Shown: piece after piece, positions 1,458 through 47,879 of the stretch
How positions within the stretch are numbered: the first letter of the stretch is position 1
How the letters are laid out: each line of letters begins with the position of its first letter
Virus record (IMG/VR): IMGVR_UViG_3300042923_001831
Span: 1-50,008 of that record
Direction: 5' to 3' (one strand)
Source of the DNA: a virus
Length of the DNA: 50,008 nucleotides
Position numbers and translations under genes: made by a program
Notes under the pieces: generated by a model
What the model was told of the DNA's origin: nothing
What the model saw: the letters and a program-made list of their open reading frames with translations, nothing else
Database searches by the model: none

Positions 1458-1474
1458 GAAGGGGGCTTTTAAGA
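1446..1474 (+). terminator. Hairpin terminator overlapping a stop codon
   Basis: CCCCT and AGGGG arms flank the TGA of the small gene and are followed by GCTTTT. The arms are short. It lies between convergent genes and probably serves the + strand unit. Confidence 0.45.
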
Positions 1475-1864
1475 AACAAGTTTAATTAGTTCTTCGCATT
1501 CTACATCTTTACTAATACCTAAGTAGGATAAGAATTTGTCAAGGATAGCTTTATTTAAGTGGGTAGGAAGTACTCCCATTTCAGGTACATTTTCTTTCGA
1601 AGATTTATATACGTACTTTAAATCTACAATCGATGGTACTTTCAACCCTGAACCTGGAATGTTTTTTAATAGATAGTATCTATCTGGGTCAGAAGCAAGA
1701 TGGTGAATCTGGCTGGAAATTGTAAAATAGTAAATTTCGTTATCAGTAAACTCATATTCAATTGGTAAAAGAATAGGATGTCCACCCATTCGAAAATCCA
1801 ATAAATTTGACTGTTTAAAAGTGATGTTTTTCTTTTTTATTATTGATCCTTCAAAATAACGCAT
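1469..1864 (-). CDS. Putative toxin partner of Panacea-domain antitoxin
   Basis: 131 aa, no family recognised with certainty. It follows the Panacea-domain gene and its ATG shares one base with that gene's TGA (TGATG), so the two are translationally coupled. Known: Panacea (DUF4065/SocA-like) proteins act as antitoxins for many unrelated toxins encoded beside them. The predicted beta-rich core (HPILLPIEYEFTDNEIYYFT) with a helical tail would fit a small effector, but no catalytic motif is evident. Toxin function is inferred from pairing alone. Confidence 0.55.
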   Translation of the reverse strand: MRYFEGSIIKKKNITFKQSNLLDFRMGGHPILLPIEYEFTDNEIYYFTISSQIHHLASDPDRYYLLKNIPGSGLKVPSIVDLKYVYKSSKENVPEMGVLPTHLNKAILDKFLSYLGISKDVECEELIKLVS

Positions 1865-2511
1865 CAGTATACCACCAATTCATCATCTTCTTTATAAACA
1901 AACAATTTTTGCCCTTTTATTTCATTACCAATTTCCCAAAGACTTCGAATATCATCATCAGTTAATGTAGTTTCAGATTCATCTAATGTAAAAACATTTC
2001 CATTTAGTTCATGGCTTTTATGAGTATCAATTTCTAAGTCCTTAAACGCATCATAAATTTCAACTAAAGAGGAATAATAACTAATCATCTTATCTCTTGT
2101 AATTATCGGGTTTAGCTTTTGCTTTACTTCATCTTCTAATTCTTTCCAGGGTTCTTCATTATGAGTTAATTCGACCAATTGATCCCCTGTTTGTTTACCG
2201 TATATATAATTAACAACTTTAAGGATTTTAGATGTATCTGGGTCTAAGTTCCCAACATCACCAAACCCCATAGAGGTTATTTCAGCTAAATGATTATGTC
2301 TGTATTCTCTAAAAGCATCTCTAACTACTGGGCCATTTTCCCATGCCTCAATACTATTTACAAAAAGGGGTTCACCTTTTACAGCCAAATGCATTGCTTG
2401 GGAATAGTATAATAGTTTTTGAAGTTTAATGTTCCCTTTATAAGAGGGAAAAGCAACATCACTATTGTTTTTAATAAACCATCTTGATATGTCAATTACA
2501 TCTTTGGGCAT
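1864..2511 (-). CDS. Panacea (DUF4065) domain protein, putative antitoxin
   Basis: 215 aa. Residues about 1-150 match the Panacea/DUF4065 pattern: an early helix DISRWFIKNN, then LQKLLYYSQAMHLAVKGEPLF, then AWENGPVVRDAFREY. Known: such domains neutralise diverse toxins in toxin-antitoxin pairs, and some regulate transcription. The start at 2511 has AGAGGTG just upstream, and a good sigma-A promoter lies at 2544-2572, so the pair can be transcribed in the lysogen independently of late genes. It lies after the endolysin, the usual place for lysogenic conversion cargo. The C-terminal third has no recognisable domain. Confidence 0.75.
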   Translation of the reverse strand: MPKDVIDISRWFIKNNSDVAFPSYKGNIKLQKLLYYSQAMHLAVKGEPLFVNSIEAWENGPVVRDAFREYRHNHLAEITSMGFGDVGNLDPDTSKILKVVNYIYGKQTGDQLVELTHNEEPWKELEDEVKQKLNPIITRDKMISYYSSLVEIYDAFKDLEIDTHKSHELNGNVFTLDESETTLTDDDIRSLWEIGNEIKGQKLFVYKEDDELVVY

Positions 2512-2543
2512 CTCACAACACCTCTCATCGTTTCTTGTGTCTT

Positions 2544-2572
2544 ATAATACACTATGTAATTAATATGCACAA
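2544..2572 (-). promoter_or_regulatory. Sigma-A promoter of the Panacea operon
   Basis: On the minus strand, TTGTGC (2567-2572) and TATTAT (2544-2549) are 17 bp apart, about 33 bases before the Panacea ATG. Confidence 0.6.
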
Positions 2573-2699
2573 ATTGTTTCACGAATATCTGTTCTGGAAA
2601 AATAACTTTATATAATATAAAGTAGGGAAACATTCCTCAAGGCTTATCCATATGTACCAATGTTTCAAATAGTTTTAAGTAAGATTCTTTTAAGAATTA

Positions 2700-2734
2700 C
2701 AAAAAGCCCCTCTCGTTTAAAGAAGGGCAATGAA
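2700..2734 (-). terminator. Terminator at the end of the late operon
   Basis: On the minus strand, GCCC..CTTTAAACGAGA..GGGGC folds as a hairpin and is followed by TTTTTG. It begins within 10 bases of the endolysin stop. Confidence 0.7.
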
Positions 2735-2735
2735 A

Positions 2736-3302
2736 TTATACTTTTATTACATGAACATTCTTCCGACCGTATTTTTCTTTTAACTCTGCTGCAACCTTTT
2801 CAGCTTGTTCAGTTGGCATGGAACCTGTCTTAATAAAAGCAAGTTCTTTTTGTTCCTTTTTAGGTTTTGGAATTGATCTATCGAATAAGGCTTGTTCCTC
2901 ATTTCTACGACTAACCAATCCCTGAAGAACCTTTCCTCCACCTTTATTCCACTTCTCAAACTCTACTGAAGCTTTATCGAATTGTCTCTTATTCACGTAC
3001 TCGAGTAAAGTGGACTTTTGCAATGCCCCCACTCCACAGTTATAGGCAAAGGAGACAAGTGCATCAAACTGATTTTGGTTTAATTCCACCTTCACCGCTT
3101 GATTGACACCATCCACAAATCGCTGAATGTCTTTATCAAAAAGAGCTTCAGCTTGTGCTTGTGAAATGACTTGCCCCTCTTTTACACCGGCAGTGCTGCC
3201 ATAACCAATCGTCCACACTCCTGCAGGACATTTATAGGCATTCAGTCTACAACCTTCATATTTTTTAACAAAATCTGCTCCACCCTTTGAAAGCTTCATC
3301 AT
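2736..3302 (-). CDS. Endolysin, GH24 lysozyme (muramidase)
   Basis: 188 aa. It should cleave the N-acetylmuramic acid to N-acetylglucosamine bond of peptidoglycan to release progeny. The GH24 phage lysozyme domain covers about residues 5-140, with the catalytic pattern E-8aa-C-5aa-T (Glu16, Cys25, Thr31) and TIGYGST. No signal peptide is present, so export should depend on the upstream holin. The last 35 residues (FIKTGSMPTEQAEKVAAELK) form a separate small SPOR-like module, possibly wall-binding. ATG 3302 overlaps the holin stop by one base, with a GGGAGCTG ribosome binding site. A second in-frame ATG follows at once. Confidence 0.93.
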   Translation of the reverse strand: MMKLSKGGADFVKKYEGCRLNAYKCPAGVWTIGYGSTAGVKEGQVISQAQAEALFDKDIQRFVDGVNQAVKVELNQNQFDALVSFAYNCGVGALQKSTLLEYVNKRQFDKASVEFEKWNKGGGKVLQGLVSRRNEEQALFDRSIPKPKKEQKELAFIKTGSMPTEQAEKVAAELKEKYGRKNVHVIKV

Positions 3303-3670
3303 TATTTATCAGCTCCCTTACCGAAAGACTTGAATTTATCCTTTACTTCACCTGGTAGATCAACATCGATGGCTTTTAGATTCTCCGTAATGCTTCCGCC
3401 TTCTTTATAGATGAATAAGGCTAATGTAAACCCGGTTAAATAAAAATTAAGACCCAAAACGAGGTCTATAGCAAAGACAAAGACAATTCCTACTAGCTCA
3501 CCAATCCAGCGAATGATACCATCTCTCATGATGCGTGATTCGTACTTGTTTACCCCTTTCCATGTTTTTAAAAGTCCAGAGGTAAAGTCCAGGACTTTTA
3601 CAAGAAAATAGAAAAATAGTGCATATTGAATTGGTTTTGGTAATAAGTCGAGCAAATGAATATCGAACAT
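3302..3670 (-). CDS. Phage holin (toxin secretion/lysis holin family)
   Basis: 122 aa with three hydrophobic segments at about residues 10-30, 50-72 and 75-92. It resembles the phage holin 4 family (LPKPIQYALFFYFLVKVLDF; early Leu-Leu segment; central RWIGELVGIVFVFAIDLVLG). It would form the membrane lesions that let the endolysin reach the wall. It ends in the coupled endolysin start. Two terminators lie directly upstream at 3741-3770 and 3799-3830, so lysis transcription must read through them or start locally. Confidence 0.88.
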   Translation of the reverse strand: MFDIHLLDLLPKPIQYALFFYFLVKVLDFTSGLLKTWKGVNKYESRIMRDGIIRWIGELVGIVFVFAIDLVLGLNFYLTGFTLALFIYKEGGSITENLKAIDVDLPGEVKDKFKSFGKGADK

Positions 3671-3740: not shown

Positions 3741-3770
3741 AAATACACCTTTCTAGGTGTTAGTTTTGTT
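3741..3770 (-). terminator. Terminator upstream of holin
   Basis: The minus-strand hairpin ACACCT-AGAA-AGGTGT is followed by ATTTTTTATG. It is the second terminator in line after the Ntn-hydrolase gene. Confidence 0.7.
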
Positions 3771-3798: not shown

Positions 3799-3826
3799 AA
3801 AGTCAACAAAAGTTGACTAAATTAAG
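3799..3826 (-). terminator. Terminator of the Ntn-hydrolase gene
   Basis: The minus-strand hairpin AGTCAAC-TTTT-GTTGACT is followed by TTTTTTATG and sits right at the stop codon of the gene at 3822. Confidence 0.8.
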
Positions 3827-4601
3827 TAGTAGCTGCTTCCCCTTTAAAACCATATCCATTAGCCATTTTAACAAATTCTTGATAACCTCTAGCTACATGT
3901 GGCATTTTTAAAGAAAAAGTGCCATCTTCATTTTGTCTATCATTATTTTGAATTGCAATACCATTATGGCCAGCAGTAATTATATGCATATGCTTACCAA
4001 TTCCATATCTTGGGTTACTTTCTAAGAAATTTGTAATGAGGATGTTATATGCTTCTGGTAATCCAATAATCTCTGCAAATCCATATACTTGATTAAAATT
4101 TGAATCCATCCATTTTAACATTTCTTTATAGTCATCAATATTTGAACCTGAGCCTATTGATATTATTTCATGTTGATGTGCTATATAAGGTTTGAAGTCT
4201 GGTGCGCAAAGCTTTATTACAGTTGACCTAGGTACTGAATTATTTCCAATAGTTATTGCTGATTTTGGAAAAGTACCGATCATTAATAAGTGACAACCTA
4301 ATTGTTTATCAATATTTGGTGCATTACTATAAATTCTCTTTGCTTTCTTACTCCATTTTTTTGCAATATAGTCTGGTATAAATCCTCTGTCTTGTTTTTC
4401 ATTTCTAATGCAATCGGCTAACCCTTCAAGCATTTTAAAACCAAGCCTAACACTTCCAGCAAATCCAGCACCAATGTTGTTTGTAATGGGGTAAAATTTT
4501 TGCAGACAATCTTTTTCGTAATTATTTCCCCATGAAACTTTTACATCCGATAATGCAAAACTATATCCAAAAAAAGAATTAACACCTATAATCCACGTCA
4601 T
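3822..4601 (-). CDS. Proteasome/HslV-like Ntn hydrolase (predicted)
   Basis: 259 aa. The N-terminus is Met-Thr-Trp, so Met removal would expose Thr as nucleophile. Further landmarks of the proteasome beta fold appear in order: Asp19 in ALSDVKVSW, Lys35 in QKFYPI, a small-residue loop GAGFAGSVRLGF, and SIGSGS at 148-153. The Asp-to-Lys spacing of 16 equals Asp17 to Lys33 of proteasome beta subunits, and the Thr-to-Asp spacing is one residue longer. Known: proteasome, HslV and Anbu use this triad. Inferred: a peptidase or amidase in this superfamily. It has its own promoter (4624-4652), a perfect AAAGGAGG site and its own terminator, as expected of an independently expressed cargo gene. The partner and target are unknown. 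Confidence 0.65.
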   Translation of the reverse strand: MTWIIGVNSFFGYSFALSDVKVSWGNNYEKDCLQKFYPITNNIGAGFAGSVRLGFKMLEGLADCIRNEKQDRGFIPDYIAKKWSKKAKRIYSNAPNIDKQLGCHLLMIGTFPKSAITIGNNSVPRSTVIKLCAPDFKPYIAHQHEIISIGSGSNIDDYKEMLKWMDSNFNQVYGFAEIIGLPEAYNILITNFLESNPRYGIGKHMHIITAGHNGIAIQNNDRQNEDGTFSLKMPHVARGYQEFVKMANGYGFKGEAATT

Positions 4602-4623
4602 AATAATTTCCTCCTTTAAGAGA

Positions 4624-4652
4624 ATATTATCTTTATTAAAATTACTTGTAAA
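4624..4652 (-). promoter_or_regulatory. Sigma-A promoter of the Ntn-hydrolase gene
   Basis: On the minus strand, TTTACA (4647-4652), a 17-bp spacer and TAATAT (4624-4629). The ATG follows 23 bases later, after AAAGGAGG. Confidence 0.7.
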
Positions 4653-4687
4653 ATGTATTTTTTCGTCCGAATGTCTTACATAGTGTC

Positions 4688-4903
4688 TTACATAGGATGC
4701 CCTTCATCCTTCTCAATTGACTTGTAACAATGGTCTTTTTCAAATGAATCTAATAATCTACAAAGCACCTTACATACTTTGCAATTCTTTTTCTTTACTC
4801 GCTTTCCCATTCTAGATGAGATTGTTTCATCTGGAAATCCGCCTAGAATTGTATTTAATAACTGATCTATCGAGATAAGTAAATTCCATATATACCTTTT
4901 CAT
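4688..4903 (-). CDS. Small conserved phage protein (SIDQLLN..GGFPDETISSR type)
   Basis: 71 aa. The pattern LLISIDQLLNTILGG, then PDETISSRMGKR, then a CKVCKVLCRLLD stretch and HCYKSIEKDEG, recalls a small conserved protein that I associate mainly with phages and prophages of Gram-negative bacteria (from memory, not searched). The first 20 residues form an amphipathic or membrane-associated helix. Three closely spaced Cys could bind metal. It lies between the DUF4376 gene and the Ntn-hydrolase promoter, next to the lysis region. The ribosome binding site is weak. Function unknown. Confidence 0.55.
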   Translation of the reverse strand: MKRYIWNLLISIDQLLNTILGGFPDETISSRMGKRVKKKNCKVCKVLCRLLDSFEKDHCYKSIEKDEGHPM

Positions 4904-7585: not shown

Positions 7586-10500
7586 CTATAATCCGAATGG
7601 GTGGGACGGATCCCCAAAAGTATGGGTATCAAAGAAGGTGATACCTCCAGTTATCTTACTGGCAGCTGGAACCGTCTCGTTAATTTTTGGTTTCACTTTC
7701 TTAACAAAATCATCTGATAATGGATGGGAATCCTTTGCCCAAGTCTTGGAACGTGAGGTTGTTTTCCAGGTCAAGACGTAGTCATCTTGTAGTGGTTGGA
7801 TATTGTCTGTAGCAGAATCTTCAATTTGACCCTTTGCGCTTCCAGTTACTCTCGTACCTATATTGGCAGGTCCTTGTAGCCATCTTTGAACGACCATATC
7901 TTCCTGACGATTGGACGATTCTAGATTTGCGAGACGCTTTGCGAATTCTTTTAGACGTTGGGCAATTCTACTTTCTGCGTTATCAGCTTTATTTAACGTT
8001 ACTCTTCTTCTAACCACTCCACCCTGTATCCATTTTTCGATTTCGGTTATTTCAAAAAGGCCCTTGGTATTATATGTTGGAAGATCTACTGTAATAAACT
8101 GACCCGCACGTAAACCGGGTACAAAAACTTCACAGCTTCCAAAGCCTTTGGGATACGCTCTATCTCGCAAAATAGCACGTCCTAATTCTCTTGCAGCCAC
8201 GACGTCTATTAAACTAGTATCGTTAATGCTTGTCTCAATACGTCCGTATTGTTGAATGCTAGAATCATCGGTTAGCTGAACCATTATCGGATACATGTAT
8301 CGGTAGATAGCTTCTAAAATTGCATCCTTTATTGGAATATTATTATCACGGAATCTAAGGGATCCTTCGTTAAAGTCCAACATGACATCAAATAGTTGCT
8401 CATCGTGTAGGTTTTGAATACCAACTCGAAGAGGTACTTTAACCCCGCCTTGTATAAGATTGACTTGAATACCACCATCGTCACCTTCGCCAAGTCGATA
8501 CGGCCTGGATCCAAGTTTGTAGATTGTATTCTGTCCATCTACTACAATCTTCTGGGTATATGGATTAGACACCCCTTGGCCACCGAAAACATATACAACG
8601 TTTGCAATGCTATCATCTTGACCAAATCTAGCAGTGCCGGCAACAATATTTTTAGATTCTTTACTTAAAGTAACAGGGTGGATTGCTGCTGAAGGTGGAT
8701 AAAATTGTAGTACCCTCTCAGCTCCATTCCATTCAACATGCCAAGACCAACCTAACAATTGTGCCAGTCTTTCGGTTACTTCGAATAAGGAGACATAATT
8801 AAAAACCTGTGTAGGCATTCCCTTTGTAGTAGCAACAACTTTGTCCAGGTTAATACTATATCCGTAATATTTTCCCCATAAGTATTTCAGGACTTCACTT
8901 ATGGTACCGGAATCTGCTGTAAACGATTCGCTTACATATACTTCTAGGGAAGCAGCAGTCCAGTCATCTACTGTGATATCCATCTCAGTTGTGATAGATC
9001 CTCTTGCACTTGTCGGATTCCCTATAATACGCCCACCGAAGTAATCTGTATTTCCAATCCCATCGACAAGATAAATGTTAACTGGTGCTCTTTGTTTAGC
9101 TAAGTTTAATATTTCGGCATTTGGGGAAGGTATTTTGAATGTCGCTGTACTGACCCGATCCTTGCCGCTATGCCGAAGGTTTAAACCATTGACCGGAATA
9201 GAAATACCATTAATAAATACCTGTTGTAACAACGTCTTCACCTTCCCCTTTATGCTATCAGCTATTCCTGTATCGTCCCAGGCTATCCCCAGGGCGTACT
9301 TAAGATATAGTTCGTCGATGATTCCTACGCCATTAGATGATACTGGGCGCTTCGTTTTTAGTCCTAGCGTTTCAGCTGTAGCGATTGCTTCCGCTAGGCC
9401 GCGCTTTGTGCTAAGTGCTAAGCTGTCCGTAAAGACCGCCTCGTCTTGCAGCATAGATTTAACCTTTGCGATAACTTCGTCGGTCGCGGCGATTAGGTCG
9501 TCCGCGCTTCGGGCTAATAGTAAGGCTGCGATAATGCTATCTGCTACTGTACTGCTATCGTCAGGCGGTAGCCCAGCGCGTTTACTCAATAATTCTGCTA
9601 AGCTCAAGGAAGTATCCTTCCGTAAACCAATGATTAATTGAAGTAATTCATCGGTTAGGCCCATTGTTTCGGCTGCGAATTTCATATTTCCGTTTAGAAT
9701 TTGATCCATGGTATCGGAATTGTCGACTAGTCTTATTCCGACTTTAGCTTTTAGCGTGTCGTTTGTCGCGATGGCTTCCTGAAGAAGGGCGGATAGCGCG
9801 AATCGGTACCCGTCCTCTACCCGGTTACTATCGCCTGAGGTGTCAAACTGCCCGCCATCCCAGCTGACCGAATCCCAGGACCCGCCTAATACATATCGGT
9901 ATAGTCTAGCGATTTCGTCCATAAGGTCGATAGTGTCGGCTGCGTTCCTTCTTGTCATTACGCCCAGAATATCCGCGGCTGCGATCGCTTCGTCGATAGG
10001 TAGTTTCGCTTTTGTTTGTAAGGTGTCTACCAGGCTGAGCGTATCGGCTAGCTGCTTACGGGCTTCGATGCATGCCGTATCGGATACGCCTACCGTATCG
10101 TCAATTGTAGTTCCGAAGCCCGATACCAGGTCGATAGTGTCCTGTAGATCGACCATTTCAGACCCTGTAACTTTTGCTTTAAGAATAAGGTCTTCCACCA
10201 GGTCGATAGCTTCCTGTAGTTCCGTCATTTCGTACTTATTCGCCAGGATGTCCGCAAGGGCGACCGTATCCGCTAGTGTTTTCATATTTTTAAGTCCGAT
10301 ACTATCGGATAGTGGTAGATTCGAATTAAGCGTTGCTGCGTATAATCCTAGAATACTGTCCACCAGGTTAATAGCTTCGTTATAAAGTAGGTTAATAGCT
10401 GCCTTTGTGTCGTCTTTGACCGATAAGCTGTCTGCTATAGCTAAGCTTATTAATAGACTAATAGAATCCGCTACCGCTGCTAGGTCGCCCGTGGCATCAA

Positions 10501-12835
10501 AAGCGGCGCTGTCCCAGGCTGCCATATCGAAGGACGACCCTAAGATTAAACGTGTAATGTTATCGATACTATCAGCTACCCTGATGATATCGTCTACTAC
10601 GCCCAACGTGACCGATAGCGCGAAGGTATCAGCTAAGGTCGTAACTGAATTAAGGATCGCGCCTATACGATTAGCTAGGGCGTCGTTTACGGTTCCCACA
10701 TCGTCTATAGTTTTCGCTATATCCTTTATGTGGTCGTCGCTAAGCGCCATTAAGTCCCCTAGAAGGGTCATAGCCTTCAGCTTATTATCGTCCGCCAGGC
10801 TTAAGGCAATTTCCGCTGCTGCCGCTTTGGCTGCTAGGGTTAGCTGTTCCGCTACTGGAAATTTGTCCCCTACGATAGCCGCTACCGACCGAAGTAAGCT
10901 GTCGGATAAATCTAGTAGGTCGTCGATATCCTTTTTAATGCTGAAGGTTGCCGTATCCCCTATGCCCGTTGTATCCCCAGGGCCAGGTCCGATATTCTTA
11001 CCCACGTCGTTATCGGATAAGTTAACCGTATCCCCAGCCGTTGGTCTTGCTTCTATACTGCTGGAATCCGTTACTCCTGTAGCGCTGTCCCCAGCTGTGC
11101 GTGGCATATCCAGCCCGCCGATAATCGTATCCGTTACCGTGCTGCTGTCGCCTGTATTCTTACCTGTTTTCGCGTCTTCGCTATCCGTTAGGGTTAGCGA
11201 AGACGCGACTACGTCCTTCACTTTTGCCGCGGTACTATCCGTTACGCCGATGGTATCCGCTAGGTTATCTTTTACTGCAACCTGAATCGCGTCCGCCAGG
11301 CTTAAGAGGTCCTCGCCTAGTATTCCGAAGCCCGTCTTAAATTCCAGGGCGTCTTCCAGGCTGATAGGGTCCCCTGACGAATCCCAGTAGGATTCATCAA
11401 AGCGACCTAGCCCGAATTCGGCGGGGATTGGTACGCCCATCTTAAAGGTCCTAGCGATATCGTCCGCCAGGCTTAAGCTATCCGATAGGACCCGCTTCGT
11501 GATGATAGCCAGGTTATCGGTCGGCGTAGCTGTGTCGTCGTTTCGGTCGGAAGCTTTCGCCTTTATGGAATCGACCGTCGTTAGAAGGTCGCCCAGGTAA
11601 TCCTCTACCCTTTTGACGATATCGTCGGAGCTGGTTACGGTATCCGCTGCGTTTGACTTTGCTTCCAGGCTGAAGTCGTCCGTTACCCCTAAACTATCAT
11701 CGGCAGCTTCAGGGCTTAACCCTTTAGCCAGGTCGTCCGCTAAACTTGTGGCGCTGGCTAGGTCCCCTTTCCCTACCGCTGTGGCGATGTTATCCAGTAC
11801 CGCCATAACGTCAGACCGTTGCGCCCGCATTTCCAGCGCTAGGGTATCCGCCAGGCTTAACATATCTGACCTGTAAGCGGTCACGGCTGCCGTGATTCCC
11901 TCTAATACGTTGACCGAATCACTTATACGCGGCTGCGCGTTACTAGTTATTGTGTCCGCTGTGTCTAACGCGATCTGGTCGGAAAGACCTCTAAGACCGC
12001 TTTTTGCCATTAGGAAATCGTTAACGGCTAGACTGTCCCCTTGTACCGCCTGGGATAGCGCTAGAAGGCTGTCCGCTAACGCGACCCCGTCTTCTAGTAA
12101 GTAGATACTTCGCTGGATAGCCGAATCATCTACGTCAACGATGTCCGCTACGTACGCCTGTATCCCCGCCCTTAAGCCAACTAATAAGCTGACGGATTCG
12201 TTTATTTGCAACTTTGCCTTTTTACGTATCGCGTCCGCCAGGCTTAAGGTATCGCCTACTGTAAGCTTCTTTAGGATTACGTCCCATTTAGCTGCGTCCC
12301 ATTGGTAGACGTCCCAGCCGTCAGTCGGTGGTTGTCCTACTGTGTGTTTAGGGGTCAAGGTATCCGATAGACTTAAAGTGTCACCATAACTTCGATACCA
12401 GGCGAAGGAAGGGTCCGTATATCTCAGCTGTAGGTTATCGATATAGACCGCGTCGTCCCCCGCTGTAGCGGACCCGTCTTTTGAGTAGACTAGCTGTAAA
12501 TTATTGTCCGAATCCTCACTTAATACTCCCGATTCCCAGTACGCCCAGCCGGTAGTCCCTGACTTTTCTAGGACCTTAACCCCGTTAAGATAGATACGAA
12601 GCCAGTCCCAGTTCAACTCTGAAGACGTGTAGTAATAAAGCGATACCTTTGCGTTAGTTGCCCCTACTGGTACCGATATATCGACGTTGTGCGTACTTGT
12701 TGAGTTGTGTCCTATAACGGCGCTACGGAAAGAATATGCCCCGTTATAGGCGCGGTTCGTGGTCCGCGTCCATGTTCCCGAATTGGAAAAGGCGGTTAAA
12801 CTACTGCCCTCGAATGTTTCTAGTATAGTCGCCAT
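7586..12835 (-). CDS. Giant baseplate hub protein with N-terminal repeat stalk
   Basis: 1749 aa. Residues 1-135 form a beta-sandwich domain resembling a carbohydrate-binding module. Residues about 145-1195 hold dozens of imperfect repeats on the theme DTLSLADSI..K, period about 20-25, interrupted four times by a W/FD..WD..FD.SGD motif. Residues about 1200-1690 resemble the gpD-like hub (phage late control D) of siphovirus tail tips (VFINGISIPV, ITVDDWTAASLEVY, LLGWSWHVEWNG, RIETSINDTSLID, GQFITVDLP). A short tail of unknown fold follows. GGAAGGGGGCGG precedes the ATG. It should sit at the tail tip, with the repeats as a long projection for adhesion. The repeat part is far richer in GC than the hub part. 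Confidence 0.75.
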   Translation of the reverse strand: MATILETFEGSSLTAFSNSGTWTRTTNRAYNGAYSFRSAVIGHNSTSTHNVDISVPVGATNAKVSLYYYTSSELNWDWLRIYLNGVKVLEKSGTTGWAYWESGVLSEDSDNNLQLVYSKDGSATAGDDAVYIDNLQLRYTDPSFAWYRSYGDTLSLSDTLTPKHTVGQPPTDGWDVYQWDAAKWDVILKKLTVGDTLSLADAIRKKAKLQINESVSLLVGLRAGIQAYVADIVDVDDSAIQRSIYLLEDGVALADSLLALSQAVQGDSLAVNDFLMAKSGLRGLSDQIALDTADTITSNAQPRISDSVNVLEGITAAVTAYRSDMLSLADTLALEMRAQRSDVMAVLDNIATAVGKGDLASATSLADDLAKGLSPEAADDSLGVTDDFSLEAKSNAADTVTSSDDIVKRVEDYLGDLLTTVDSIKAKASDRNDDTATPTDNLAIITKRVLSDSLSLADDIARTFKMGVPIPAEFGLGRFDESYWDSSGDPISLEDALEFKTGFGILGEDLLSLADAIQVAVKDNLADTIGVTDSTAAKVKDVVASSLTLTDSEDAKTGKNTGDSSTVTDTIIGGLDMPRTAGDSATGVTDSSSIEARPTAGDTVNLSDNDVGKNIGPGPGDTTGIGDTATFSIKKDIDDLLDLSDSLLRSVAAIVGDKFPVAEQLTLAAKAAAAEIALSLADDNKLKAMTLLGDLMALSDDHIKDIAKTIDDVGTVNDALANRIGAILNSVTTLADTFALSVTLGVVDDIIRVADSIDNITRLILGSSFDMAAWDSAAFDATGDLAAVADSISLLISLAIADSLSVKDDTKAAINLLYNEAINLVDSILGLYAATLNSNLPLSDSIGLKNMKTLADTVALADILANKYEMTELQEAIDLVEDLILKAKVTGSEMVDLQDTIDLVSGFGTTIDDTVGVSDTACIEARKQLADTLSLVDTLQTKAKLPIDEAIAAADILGVMTRRNAADTIDLMDEIARLYRYVLGGSWDSVSWDGGQFDTSGDSNRVEDGYRFALSALLQEAIATNDTLKAKVGIRLVDNSDTMDQILNGNMKFAAETMGLTDELLQLIIGLRKDTSLSLAELLSKRAGLPPDDSSTVADSIIAALLLARSADDLIAATDEVIAKVKSMLQDEAVFTDSLALSTKRGLAEAIATAETLGLKTKRPVSSNGVGIIDELYLKYALGIAWDDTGIADSIKGKVKTLLQQVFINGISIPVNGLNLRHSGKDRVSTATFKIPSPNAEILNLAKQRAPVNIYLVDGIGNTDYFGGRIIGNPTSARGSITTEMDITVDDWTAASLEVYVSESFTADSGTISEVLKYLWGKYYGYSINLDKVVATTKGMPTQVFNYVSLFEVTERLAQLLGWSWHVEWNGAERVLQFYPPSAAIHPVTLSKESKNIVAGTARFGQDDSIANVVYVFGGQGVSNPYTQKIVVDGQNTIYKLGSRPYRLGEGDDGGIQVNLIQGGVKVPLRVGIQNLHDEQLFDVMLDFNEGSLRFRDNNIPIKDAILEAIYRYMYPIMVQLTDDSSIQQYGRIETSINDTSLIDVVAARELGRAILRDRAYPKGFGSCEVFVPGLRAGQFITVDLPTYNTKGLFEITEIEKWIQGGVVRRRVTLNKADNAESRIAQRLKEFAKRLANLESSNRQEDMVVQRWLQGPANIGTRVTGSAKGQIEDSATDNIQPLQDDYVLTWKTTSRSKTWAKDSHPLSDDFVKKVKPKINETVPAASKITGGITFFDTHTFGDPSHPFGL
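9255..12400 (-). repeat. Coding repeat region of the hub protein (DTLSLADS-type)
   Basis: Short, diverged repeats keep Asp at fixed positions (consensus roughly D-T/S-L-S-L-A/T-D-S/T-I/L). Related nucleotide segments such as GTCCGCCAGGCTTAA recur many times on the + strand. Composition is GC-rich: 34 of 60 bases at 9481-9540, against 23 of 60 at 14821-14880 in the tape measure gene. Confidence 0.75.
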
Positions 12836-31573: not shown

Positions 31574-32323
31574 ATGAATAGAGAACAAGCTAAGAAAAAT
31601 AAAAAAAAATTCGAAAAAAATGATATAGCATTATTCTTAGCGCCAATTACAGCTCTTTGTTACGGGCTAGTTTATACTTTGGAACTCGGAAAATATAACT
31701 ATTATGGAATACCTACTTCCTTAATTGAGTTAGATTTGAATTCTTTAACTTCTGGTATCTTAACCTTATTTCCTATGCTCTTAATAATTTTCTTTTTTAT
31801 ATATCATTTGTTTTTTAAAATTAAATCTAATAAAACTAATGATCTCGAGGAAGATGTGAAAAAAAAATCTTCAAAATGGTCTTTAGTACGTGATATAGCA
31901 ACACTCGTTGTTTTAATATATATATGTGGATTCATCTATGGATTATATATAAAGTATTTTGGCAATATCACATATTTGATATTTATTCTAGTTATGATAT
32001 TTCTAGTGTTTATTATCTTTATGATTAGGTTTTATAAAAAGGAGAATTACACAAATACTTTAATAACTGGTATTTTATTCTTTATTATTTTTTCATTTTC
32101 ATTAGGATATATTGCGCCAGCACTCAATACTCATCATGTAGTAATTCAAGTAAAAAATCAAAATTATATTCTTTTAGAAAACTATAAAGAAAATTTCATT
32201 TTATCTCCTGTAGATTTAAAAACAAAAACATTAAAAAGAGAGTTAATCCTAAAAAATATTGCGGACGATGATTATAAAATTAAAAGGGAAAAAATAATCT
32301 TAAAAAATTTTATTATTGATTAA
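31574..32323 (+). CDS. Polytopic membrane protein (accessory)
   Basis: 249 aa, not recognised. Helices at about 18-36, 58-82, 105-127, 132-152 and 163-183, then an 80-residue soluble C-terminal domain (HVVIQVKNQNYILLENYKEN; LKTKTLKRELILKNIADDDY). It is opposite in direction to the phage early genes, has its own promoter and terminator, and is markedly AT-rich, all typical of a cargo gene. Multi-pass membrane proteins in such positions often act in superinfection exclusion, but nothing specific shows this. Confidence 0.55.
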   Translation: MNREQAKKNKKKFEKNDIALFLAPITALCYGLVYTLELGKYNYYGIPTSLIELDLNSLTSGILTLFPMLLIIFFFIYHLFFKIKSNKTNDLEEDVKKKSSKWSLVRDIATLVVLIYICGFIYGLYIKYFGNITYLIFILVMIFLVFIIFMIRFYKKENYTNTLITGILFFIIFSFSLGYIAPALNTHHVVIQVKNQNYILLENYKENFILSPVDLKTKTLKRELILKNIADDDYKIKREKIILKNFIID

Positions 32324-44666: not shown

Positions 44667-45101
44667 ATGGGTAATGAACTGGGGCAATTCCTCGAAGAAT
44701 TAAGGGGTAAATTAAGTTTAAGGGATGCTGCAGAAAAAAGCGGTCTTAGTCACACGTATATTCGTGATTTAGAGCTCGGATTAAATAGAAAAACTAAAGC
44801 TCCAATAAGACCATCAGCAGATACCTTAATACAGTTAGCTAAAGCTTACAATTGCCCGCCAAATGATTTATTAAAAGTAGCTGGGTACATTGAAGAGGAC
44901 GTTGATTCAAATAATAGCGTTAACTACGATTCTTTATCCGAAATCAACAAGCTAGTCGAGAAATACGGCTTAGATCAACTAGGATTCTTCGATATCGAAC
45001 AGTGGAAAAACCTTTCACCAGACGATGTATTACTACTGGAAGAACAATTCAAATCAATCGTAAAATTCGCTAAGAAGAGAAATGAAAACAACAAAGATTA
45101 G
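44667..45101 (+). CDS. XRE family lysogeny repressor (CI/ImmR-like)
   Basis: 144 aa. HTH domain at about 5-72 (LRDAAEKSGLSHTYIRDLEL, then PSADTLIQLAKAYNCPPNDL), then an acidic linker and a C-terminal helical part (LEEQFKSIVKFAKKRNENNK). It has no peptidase domain, so it cannot self-cleave like LexA or lambda CI; removal by the ImmA-like protease at 47983 is expected, as for ImmR of ICEBs1. GGGAGAGG lies before the ATG. Confidence 0.88.
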   Translation: MGNELGQFLEELRGKLSLRDAAEKSGLSHTYIRDLELGLNRKTKAPIRPSADTLIQLAKAYNCPPNDLLKVAGYIEEDVDSNNSVNYDSLSEINKLVEKYGLDQLGFFDIEQWKNLSPDDVLLLEEQFKSIVKFAKKRNENNKD

Positions 45102-45444: not shown

Positions 45445-46977
45445 ATGTCATTTACAATAAAATCAATCCCAATTAATGACATTCATGTGAATGTCCTTAA
45501 TCCTAGATACGAGCCTCAAGAGAGTGAAGTTAAGGAAATGAATTTAATTATTAACCAAGGCAAAATACTAGGATTAATTAAAGATATTGCCCAATTTGGA
45601 TTAGATCCGAGTGAAAATCTAATTGTATCTTATGATAATGAATTGGAAGCATACGTTTCAGAAGAAGGTAATAGAAGAATAACAGCAGTAAAGTTATTAA
45701 AAAATCCTGAAATAACACCTTCGTTTACAAAAAACAGAGATAAGTTTATTTCAAAGATATATGAAATTAAATCACAGTTTCCTAACAGTACCATCAAAAA
45801 AGTCAATTGTGTAATTTTTACAGATTCGATGACCCAAGACCATTTTATTGAATTAAAACACACCGGAGAAAATGACGGAGCAGGAAGAATATCATGGGAT
45901 AGAGAAAGCAAAATTAGATTTTCTAAAGAAAAAAATCCATTTAACCTTTATCTACTTGAATTTATGCAAAATATGTTTCCGGGACAGTCAAATTTTTATA
46001 CTTCAACTGTAGAAACGAGGATAATCTCTGATCCCAATTTTAGAACTGTCTTTGAAATGGAAATCTCGAAAAATCCTCCCAAAATAAATTTTAATTCTAA
46101 AAAAGGCTACAATAGATTTTATTTTGTAATTGACGGATTAATTAATAAAACATTTAATGTAGGTGATTTTTATTTAAAAGAAGATAGAGAAATATTTATT
46201 AATAAACATTTTGGGTCTATAAATGAAGAACAAGATGAAGATTCAGTAAGTTTATTTAATTTCGACTCAATTCCTTTACCTGAAGAAATAGACATGCATT
46301 CAGACAATATAGAAACTTCCAAAATCTATGAAACGGAATCAGAACCAGTCACAGATTTAGAAGCAGATAATAATAAATTTGTAGAGACAGTTCCACAAAA
46401 TTCAGATGTTACAGTTAATCCAAATTCATTAGACCTACAAAATGAAACTGGTATTGTCGGTAGACCATATAAAAATATTTCTGAATATCATAATCTTACA
46501 AAGGCAATACCTTTTAAAAATAAATTCCGAAAAAATTTAAGAATAAATCAAACTCTTAAAGAATTGTCAAACATTGAGTATAAAAATAACCCAGTAGCTT
46601 CAATGTATTTGTTACGGAGTTTATTAGAATCATATGTAAATGAATACATTGATTGTTTTGCAAGTAGAAATGACGAGTTAAGGATGAAAGGAATTAGTCC
46701 TAAACGAGAAAAAAGGACAAAGAAACTCAGGGAACTTTTATATGATGATATATATATTCACTTAAAAGATGTAATTCAACACTATTCAACAACATATGAA
46801 CTAATTAAAGTTACTTTTACCGAAAACAATAATACTGCTACAACGCAAATTATCAATCATTATGTTCATTCGTCTACAAATTACCCAGATAGTTCAGAAA
46901 TATTAGATGCATGGCAAAAAATAAATACAATAATTTCATCTTTGGATATTTTACTAAATAATCACTCTGCCAATTAA
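45445..46977 (+). CDS. ParB/Srx-like N-terminal domain protein
   Basis: 510 aa. Residues about 5-150 match the ParB N-terminal (ParB/Srx) fold: SIPINDIHVNVLNPRYEP, then LGLIKDIAQFGLDPSENLIV, then EEGNRRITAVKLL (GNRR at 75-78). A variable acidic region follows (about 260-350). The C-terminal domain (about 375-505) is helical (ASMYLLRSLLESYVNEYIDC; INHYVHSSTNYPDSSEIL) and weakly recalls HEPN-like domains. Known: ParB-like domains act as CTP-dependent clamps or as nucleases in conflict systems. Its methyltransferase neighbour suggests a modification-linked defence role. AT-rich. Confidence 0.7.
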   Translation: MSFTIKSIPINDIHVNVLNPRYEPQESEVKEMNLIINQGKILGLIKDIAQFGLDPSENLIVSYDNELEAYVSEEGNRRITAVKLLKNPEITPSFTKNRDKFISKIYEIKSQFPNSTIKKVNCVIFTDSMTQDHFIELKHTGENDGAGRISWDRESKIRFSKEKNPFNLYLLEFMQNMFPGQSNFYTSTVETRIISDPNFRTVFEMEISKNPPKINFNSKKGYNRFYFVIDGLINKTFNVGDFYLKEDREIFINKHFGSINEEQDEDSVSLFNFDSIPLPEEIDMHSDNIETSKIYETESEPVTDLEADNNKFVETVPQNSDVTVNPNSLDLQNETGIVGRPYKNISEYHNLTKAIPFKNKFRKNLRINQTLKELSNIEYKNNPVASMYLLRSLLESYVNEYIDCFASRNDELRMKGISPKREKRTKKLRELLYDDIYIHLKDVIQHYSTTYELIKVTFTENNNTATTQIINHYVHSSTNYPDSSEILDAWQKINTIISSLDILLNNHSAN

Positions 46978-47015
46978 TAGATTTTTAATCTATAATTAGG
47001 CTAGGAGTTGATAAT

Positions 47016-47879
47016 ATGGCTAATCCTTCACCCCTAAGGTATCCAGGTGGTAAATATAAAACTTATAATTATATAAAGTCATTAATTGAAACAAACAGAT
47101 GTACAACATATATAGAGCCCTTTGCTGGCGGTTCAGCTGTGGCATTAAAACTTCTATTGGATAATGTGGTCAAAAAAATTATCATAAACGATTTTGATCG
47201 TTCCATTTATGCATTATGGTATTCAATTATCAATTATCCTGACGAATTAATAAGACTTATTCATGATACTCCAATCACAATGGAAGAGTGGTATAAGCAA
47301 AAAGAAGTTCAAAAAAATAAAGTACATGAACCTCTAATAACCTTAGGATTTTCCACACTGTTTCTAAACCGAACAAATAGATCTGGAATTATTAAAGCTG
47401 GTGTTATCGGCGGAAAAGAACAAAATGGAAATTATTTAATAGATTGTAGATTTCCTAAATCAGAAATTATTAATAGAATAAAAGAGATTTCCAAACTTAG
47501 AGATAAGATTGAACTTTACAATATGGATGCAATTATTTTTATTGATTTAGTGATTAAAAAAACAAGAAACTCATTTACTTTTTTTGATCCACCCTATTTT
47601 CAAAAAGGGCCAAGTTTATATGTTAATTTTTATTCTACTGAGGATCATTTAGCTCTATCAAAACAAATTCAAAAAGAATTGAGAAACAGAAAGTGGATTG
47701 TTACCTATGATAATGCCATAGAAATAAGAGATATGTATTTAAACCTTGAATTTATGGAGTATTATTTAAACTACACTGCTCAAGACAAGAAAAAAGGGGT
47801 TGAATATATGTTCTTCTCTAATAAAACTGTTATTTCAGATCCCACAAAGCATCTGAAGGTCCTTCAACCACTCCTATAA
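47016..47879 (+). CDS. Dam-like D12-class adenine-N6 DNA methyltransferase
   Basis: 287 aa. Complete D12 motif set: LRYPGGK (7-13), EPFAGGSA SAM pocket (34-41), IINDFDRSIYALW, an RTNRSG stretch and catalytic DPPY (191-194) in FFDPPYF. The family methylates adenine, GATC in Dam itself; specificity here is unknown. GGAGTTGATAAT precedes the ATG, 39 bases after the ParB-like gene. No restriction enzyme of known type is adjacent, so this is an orphan methylase or the modification half of a system with the ParB-like protein. Confidence 0.93.
   Translation: MANPSPLRYPGGKYKTYNYIKSLIETNRCTTYIEPFAGGSAVALKLLLDNVVKKIIINDFDRSIYALWYSIINYPDELIRLIHDTPITMEEWYKQKEVQKNKVHEPLITLGFSTLFLNRTNRSGIIKAGVIGGKEQNGNYLIDCRFPKSEIINRIKEISKLRDKIELYNMDAIIFIDLVIKKTRNSFTFFDPPYFQKGPSLYVNFYSTEDHLALSKQIQKELRNRKWIVTYDNAIEIRDMYLNLEFMEYYLNYTAQDKKKGVEYMFFSNKTVISDPTKHLKVLQPLL

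Follow-up and report, generated by a model that had tools for sequence, protein, structure and literature searches.

A divergent proteasome-like Ntn hydrolase encoded at the tail/lysis boundary of a Fernvirus-like Paenibacillus prophage

Results

Gene, flanking signals and host phage

The gene described here is located between the tail-fibre module and the holin gene, where tail and lysis genes adjoin in a 50,008-base IMG/VR virus record; the record was examined as a whole and is referred to as the window (Table 1). Its 259-aa ORF starts with ATG ACG TGG (Met-Thr-Trp) behind a strong AAAGGAGG site. Asp19 and Lys35 are 16 residues apart, a spacing equal to that of Asp17 and Lys33 in the known triad, and the small-residue loop GFAGS (residues 46-50) is followed by a GSGS motif (residues 150-153). 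The Met-Thr start, the Asp/Lys spacing and the order of loop and motif, all noticed in a first-pass annotation of this DNA, were thus borne out. The same annotation had given the gene a terminator and a consensus promoter of its own. Terminator-like sites numbered 7 in the region as against 2.0 ± 1.4 in shuffled sequences and the segment downstream of the gene showed a folding z of -4.6, and the terminator after the stop codon is convincing. The promoter-like site is well positioned yet weak; since such sites were not more frequent than expected by chance (8 in the region, 9.7 ± 3.0 in shuffles) and the match was 9/12, calling it a consensus promoter was an overstatement. Two TATGTAAGACA copies lie twelve bases apart (4672-4694) and overlap the stop codon of the upstream neighbour of the protease gene. 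This 12-base direct repeat was considered as an insertion footprint, but no further copy is present in the window and it was set aside as not informative.

Table 1. Features at the proteasome-like gene and its neighbours (window coordinates)
Feature	Position	Strand	Basis
Proteasome-like Ntn hydrolase, 259 aa	3822..4601	-	ORF, homologue alignment, PDB profile matches, AF2 model
Predicted nucleophile Thr2 (Thr1 once Met is removed), Asp19, Lys35, GFAG loop 46-49, GSGS 150-153	within the 259-aa protein		
Ribosome-binding site AAAGGAGG before ATG	4608..4617	-	sequence 5' of the start
Promoter-like TTTACA-17-TAATAT, match 9/12	4624..4652	-	site frequency in region not above chance
Intrinsic terminator-like hairpin right after stop codon	3801..3818	-	hairpin count against shuffles, folding z
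Second hairpin followed by T-rich sequence, between protease and holin genes	3745..3760	both	hairpin scan, folding
Upstream neighbour: small conserved phage protein, function not assigned (phrog_3342)	4688..4903	-	PHROG match
Downstream neighbour: holin (Phage_holin_4_1)	3302..3670	-	Pfam match
Endolysin (phage lysozyme)	2736..3302	-	family match

The window carries the gene set of a temperate siphophage (terminase, portal, ClpP-like head protease, capsid, tail, holin, endolysin, RecT, DnaB, anti-repressor and serine integrase). Capsid and portal share about 74% identity with the proteins of Paenibacillus larvae phages, with phage Diva of the genus Fernvirus at the top of the portal match list, and the carrier is a Fernvirus-like Paenibacillus prophage. 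The record begins exactly on an ATG and ends exactly on the stop codon of the integrase gene (positions 1 and 50008); its ends therefore resemble the limits of gene calls more than attachment sites. Two genes at 45445-47879 (plus strand), near a regulator-like gene (44667-45101) and the serine integrase, matched the anti-phage defence system PD-Lambda-5 (component A, E 3e-182; component B, a methyltransferase, E 4e-115). Other genes recorded in the window were a Panacea/SocA-type antitoxin-like gene (1469-2511, minus strand), which, with a 131-aa partner that overlaps it by one base and matched no family, forms a candidate toxin-antitoxin pair; a 1749-aa tail-region protein (7586-12835, minus strand) consisting mostly of a degenerate 'DSLSLAD...' repeat; and a 249-aa ORF (31574-32323, plus strand) with 23% GC as compared to 37% for the record and neither PHROG nor PADLOC matches.

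Homologues and conserved residues

The 259-aa protein scored below threshold with both the Pfam Proteasome model (PF00227; 13.7 bits against a gathering score of 22.4) and the HslV model (NCBIfam TIGR03692; 13.8 bits against a cut-off of 157.75). A claim from this single sequence would have been a guess, and homologues were therefore gathered from a Vibrio plasmid, a Salmonella plasmid, six loci in GTDB genomes, three virus records and one Acidobacteriota genome. Ten of these were intact and came from Omnitrophota, Chloroflexota, Acidobacteriota, Pseudomonadota, the two plasmids and the three other virus records. Conservation of Thr2, Asp19 and Lys35 among homologues, a check proposed along with the first reading, was found in 11/11 family members (window protein and ten intact homologues), where identity falls as low as 18%. 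Met1, Trp3 and Gly49 were likewise invariant, and GSG at 150-152 was kept in all but two of the 11. Every intact homologue begins Met-Thr-Trp, and in most members a ribosome-binding site precedes the Met-Thr start. Two of the virus records (L019 and L020) have an in-frame ATG further upstream, but there the ribosome-binding site fronts the second ATG, directly before Thr.

Some members were broken: that of L004 is frameshifted, while that of L007 and a copy in L036 are truncated or interrupted. Such copies would be seen with dispensable cargo as well as with drifting genes. Three very divergent proteasome-like proteins were also seen in the same phylum as locus L005 (L026 1492-2487, L027 1501-2211 and L028 ~1474-3231). 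They carry an Asp/Lys pair and, at position 2, either Thr or Ser; a terminase-like gene is found upstream of the one in L026, and the L028 protein is ~585-600 aa long.

Relation to proteasome and HslV

A profile of ten members, searched against all PDB sequences, matched 27 chains at E<=1 (best E 2.8e-6), and 27/27 were proteasome or HslV. Together with the invariance of Thr2, Asp19 and Lys35, this selectivity ruled out a chance resemblance. Alignment to HslV paired T2 with T1, D19 with D17 and K35 with K33, and profile-profile comparison with HslV (hhalign) gave an E of 6.2e-8. An AlphaFold2 monomer model built from eight rows (pLDDT 85.7, pTM 0.85) showed the proteasome beta topology, in the element order strands, H51-66, H76-92, strands, H155-167, H181-195, E205-211 and E214-219, that is, the four-layer alpha-beta-beta-alpha fold with a beta core and helices H1-H4. 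Structure prediction followed by fold search had been suggested as a check of the Ntn assignment; the best 50 PDB matches of the model were all 20S proteasome chains (probability 1.00, best E 5e-9). Neither outcome named beforehand as refuting the first reading, a fold other than Ntn or homologues lacking the three residues, was thus obtained. The sequence-level proof spans ~110 N-terminal residues, and the C-terminal half is placed by the structure prediction and the conserved GSG. Extra segments at ~111-125 and 168-180 were present in both alignment and model. On the strength of fold and triad, the product of ORF 3822-4601 almost certainly belongs, as a divergent sequence, to the proteasome-like (Ntn hydrolase) family. 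The first reading had offered a peptidase or amidase. An amidase is possible, but by sequence and structure the protein belongs to the proteasome/HslV branch and not with the acylases.

It is not HslV itself. Apart from the score, its length (259 aa as compared to ~175 aa), the missing partner in the record and the tree spoke against this identity; in the tree a branch of length 3.06 (changes per column) set off the HslV pair, although the forks between groups were weak. Segments that HslV lacks were located behind the first helix pair (between strands), in the H3-H4 interval and at the C-terminal end. A search for an HslU/ClpX-type ATPase (PF07724, AAA_2) gave no match in the 50,008-base record, whereas the same search was positive in 14/14 control genomes. 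The earlier statement that no ATPase gene lies near was therefore correct; HslU may be supplied by the host as partner.

Distribution and neighbourhoods

None of 50,697 phage records matched any of the four different members used as queries, so related Fernvirus phages lack the gene (cf. the gene list of phage Diva) and a standard phage gene was rejected as an explanation. Viral contigs were scanned three times with patterns derived from single proteins or an early, small alignment, each time without a hit; patterns drawn from an improved alignment retrieved the three virus records (L018, L019 and L020). The tail-fibre protein encoded nearby was used in a scan to reach the corresponding site in sister prophages, and no match was returned. 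In the groups sampled, each several hundred genomes added no more than a few members to the seed and in some cases none, counts that are lower bounds since collection scans use short peptide patterns.

In L018 the homologue has tail genes on one side and an amidase gene on the other; in L019 a gene with weak resemblance to holins and a tail gene of the NlpC/P60 type are nearby; and in L020 the tape-measure gene and that of a minor tail protein flank it. Mapping of neighbours, again suggested earlier, thus recovered tail or lysis genes in the virus records, but plasmid and chromosomal members had no tail genes nearby. In L005 the homologue overlaps an integrase gene by four bases, and in L008 it adjoins a RelE-type pair. 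The distribution is patchy and mobile, and this spread, the plasmids and the integrase neighbour supported the earlier designation as phage cargo.

RES-domain genes adjoin the frameshifted homologue of L004 (9082-9915) and the homologue of L009 (11193-11987). Their matches sit at the family cut-off. The two genes are homologous to each other (E 3e-9) in hosts of different phyla, and RES matches are few in those genomes. They accompany 2 of about twelve homologue loci; no RES gene was found in the 50,008-base window, nor was a RES partner found when looked for on the Vibrio and Salmonella plasmids. The association is a lead from two cases, not proof.

Discussion

On balance, we take the protein to be an ATPase-independent N-terminal-threonine peptidase, the product of an accessory cargo gene that the Fernvirus-like Paenibacillus prophage carries where its tail and lysis genes meet. 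Methionine aminopeptidase is able to remove Met in front of Thr, and the chemistry of the triad is established for proteasome and HslV. Host methionine aminopeptidase would remove Met1, upon which the freed Thr, with Asp19 and Lys35, could attack a peptide bond, with the oxyanion site shaped by the GFAG loop and the GSGS segment. The extra segments may restrict the substrate and may alter or block ring assembly; the targets would be phage or host proteins in a flexible or unfolded state, one or a few of them, as opposed to general degradation. As the proteasome-like connectase is a ligase, hydrolysis of peptide bonds is something we infer, and we hold it to be quite likely. A function as cargo, and not in virion assembly, is also likely for the gene, and the prophage bears a second, known cargo system in PD-Lambda-5. 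The position at the tail/lysis boundary by itself would suit a virion-related role equally.

In such a role the enzyme, encoded in the late module, would cleave a protein of the tail, fibre or lysis set while virions are assembled. Besides the site between tail-fibre module and holin, the positions of the L018 and L020 homologues speak for it, but it is unlikely in view of the absence of a match in the 50,697 phage records and of the gene from related Fernvirus phages, the members on plasmids and chromosomes away from tail genes, and the terminator that closes the cassette in the window. The patchy mobile distribution would also be expected of a defence or anti-defence factor, a protease that senses or disarms a competitor or host immune protein and possibly controls a toxic partner; the RelE-type pair beside the L008 homologue, PD-Lambda-5 elsewhere in the prophage and the mutually homologous RES genes beside homologues in two distant genomes point the same way. 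PADLOC models, however, matched neither the protein nor its homologues, the window has no RES gene and RES genes stand at only two of about twelve loci, which makes this role rather improbable. More speculative still is a two-gene conflict module, in some genomes, of the protease and a RES-domain effector of the NAD-degrading type, the protease activating, releasing or removing the effector; the window copy would be a detached protease that interferes with or stands in for such a system. If true, the RES association would give orphan proteasome-like proteases their first functional setting.

An altered catalysis, either as a connectase-like transpeptidase/ligase or as an acylase/amidase acting on a small molecule, is conceivable because the Ntn clan is chemically diverse, and the proteasome-like family includes connectase and extra segments are able to change function (PMC8665760). 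We regard it as very unlikely, since the model has the H1/H2 pair (51-66, 76-92) that connectase lacks and the fold and sequence matches are to proteasome and HslV, not to acylases. That the protein is an inactive relic or a fold-only binding protein is scarcely credible: some homologues are broken and the window gene is of low GC and cargo-like, but the gene in the window is unbroken, and very divergent intact members all keep the triad.

That the gene stands alone had been regarded as unusual, which did not hold. Fuchs, Alva and Lupas (2021) described 22 novel proteasome-like families, several of them in phages, and found no co-occurring recognisable AAA+ partner for them (PMC8665760); families with phage members include PPH, AAH, CPH, DAH and PMI-4 (PMC8665760). 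The Salmonella jumbo phage pSal-SNUABM-04 has HslV and lacks HslU (PMC7823757), and further phage proteins with a proteasome-like fold are present in a library of predicted viral structures. Lone proteasome cousins in phages are thus already known as a kind. The sparse Met-Thr-Trp family is named in no curated library, being matched by no Pfam, NCBIfam, PHROG or PADLOC model, and it extends the proteasome-like family to Paenibacillus-type temperate phages. The 2021 survey left the role of lone proteasome relatives as a question (PMC8665760), and a temperate phage with a relative that is small, soluble and ATPase-free offers a convenient setting in which to probe it.

Among known systems, HslV (ClpQ) shares with the window protein the Thr1/Asp17/Lys33 triad, the GFAG loop, the GSG motif, the order of secondary structure and a significant profile match, whereas the window protein is longer, has additional segments, lacks HslU in the record and is separated by a long branch. 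The 20S proteasome beta subunits gave the best fold matches (50/50 of the top) and share the catalytic layout, but the window protein falls below the Pfam gathering score, has no propeptide and no alpha subunit or ATPase gene was seen in the record. The HslV-type genes of pSal-SNUABM-04 also occur without the ATPase subunit, in a phage of another type, and are annotated as HslV itself. PPH, AAH and CPH are, like the present gene, lone proteasome-like phage genes without a recognisable AAA+ partner. Identity with PPH was rejected, as PPH has ~140 residues and no helix H2, in contrast to 259 residues with H2 at 76-92; AAH and CPH are both described as compact and insertion-free. Connectase was rejected since the H1/H2 pair is present and the turn between S3 and S4 is short, where connectase has a two-helical insertion. 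The PMI families (proteasome homologs with multiple insertions) resemble the window protein in having several insertions, one of them between H3 and H4. PMI-4, reported from Firmicutes, Proteobacteria, PVC, other bacteria and phages (PMC8665760), has insertions after H1/H2 and between H3 and H4; the extra segments of the window protein, at ~111-125 and 168-180, may be their counterparts. Among the clusters of Fuchs et al., PMI-4 fits best by insertions and spread, and the two are possibly the same family.
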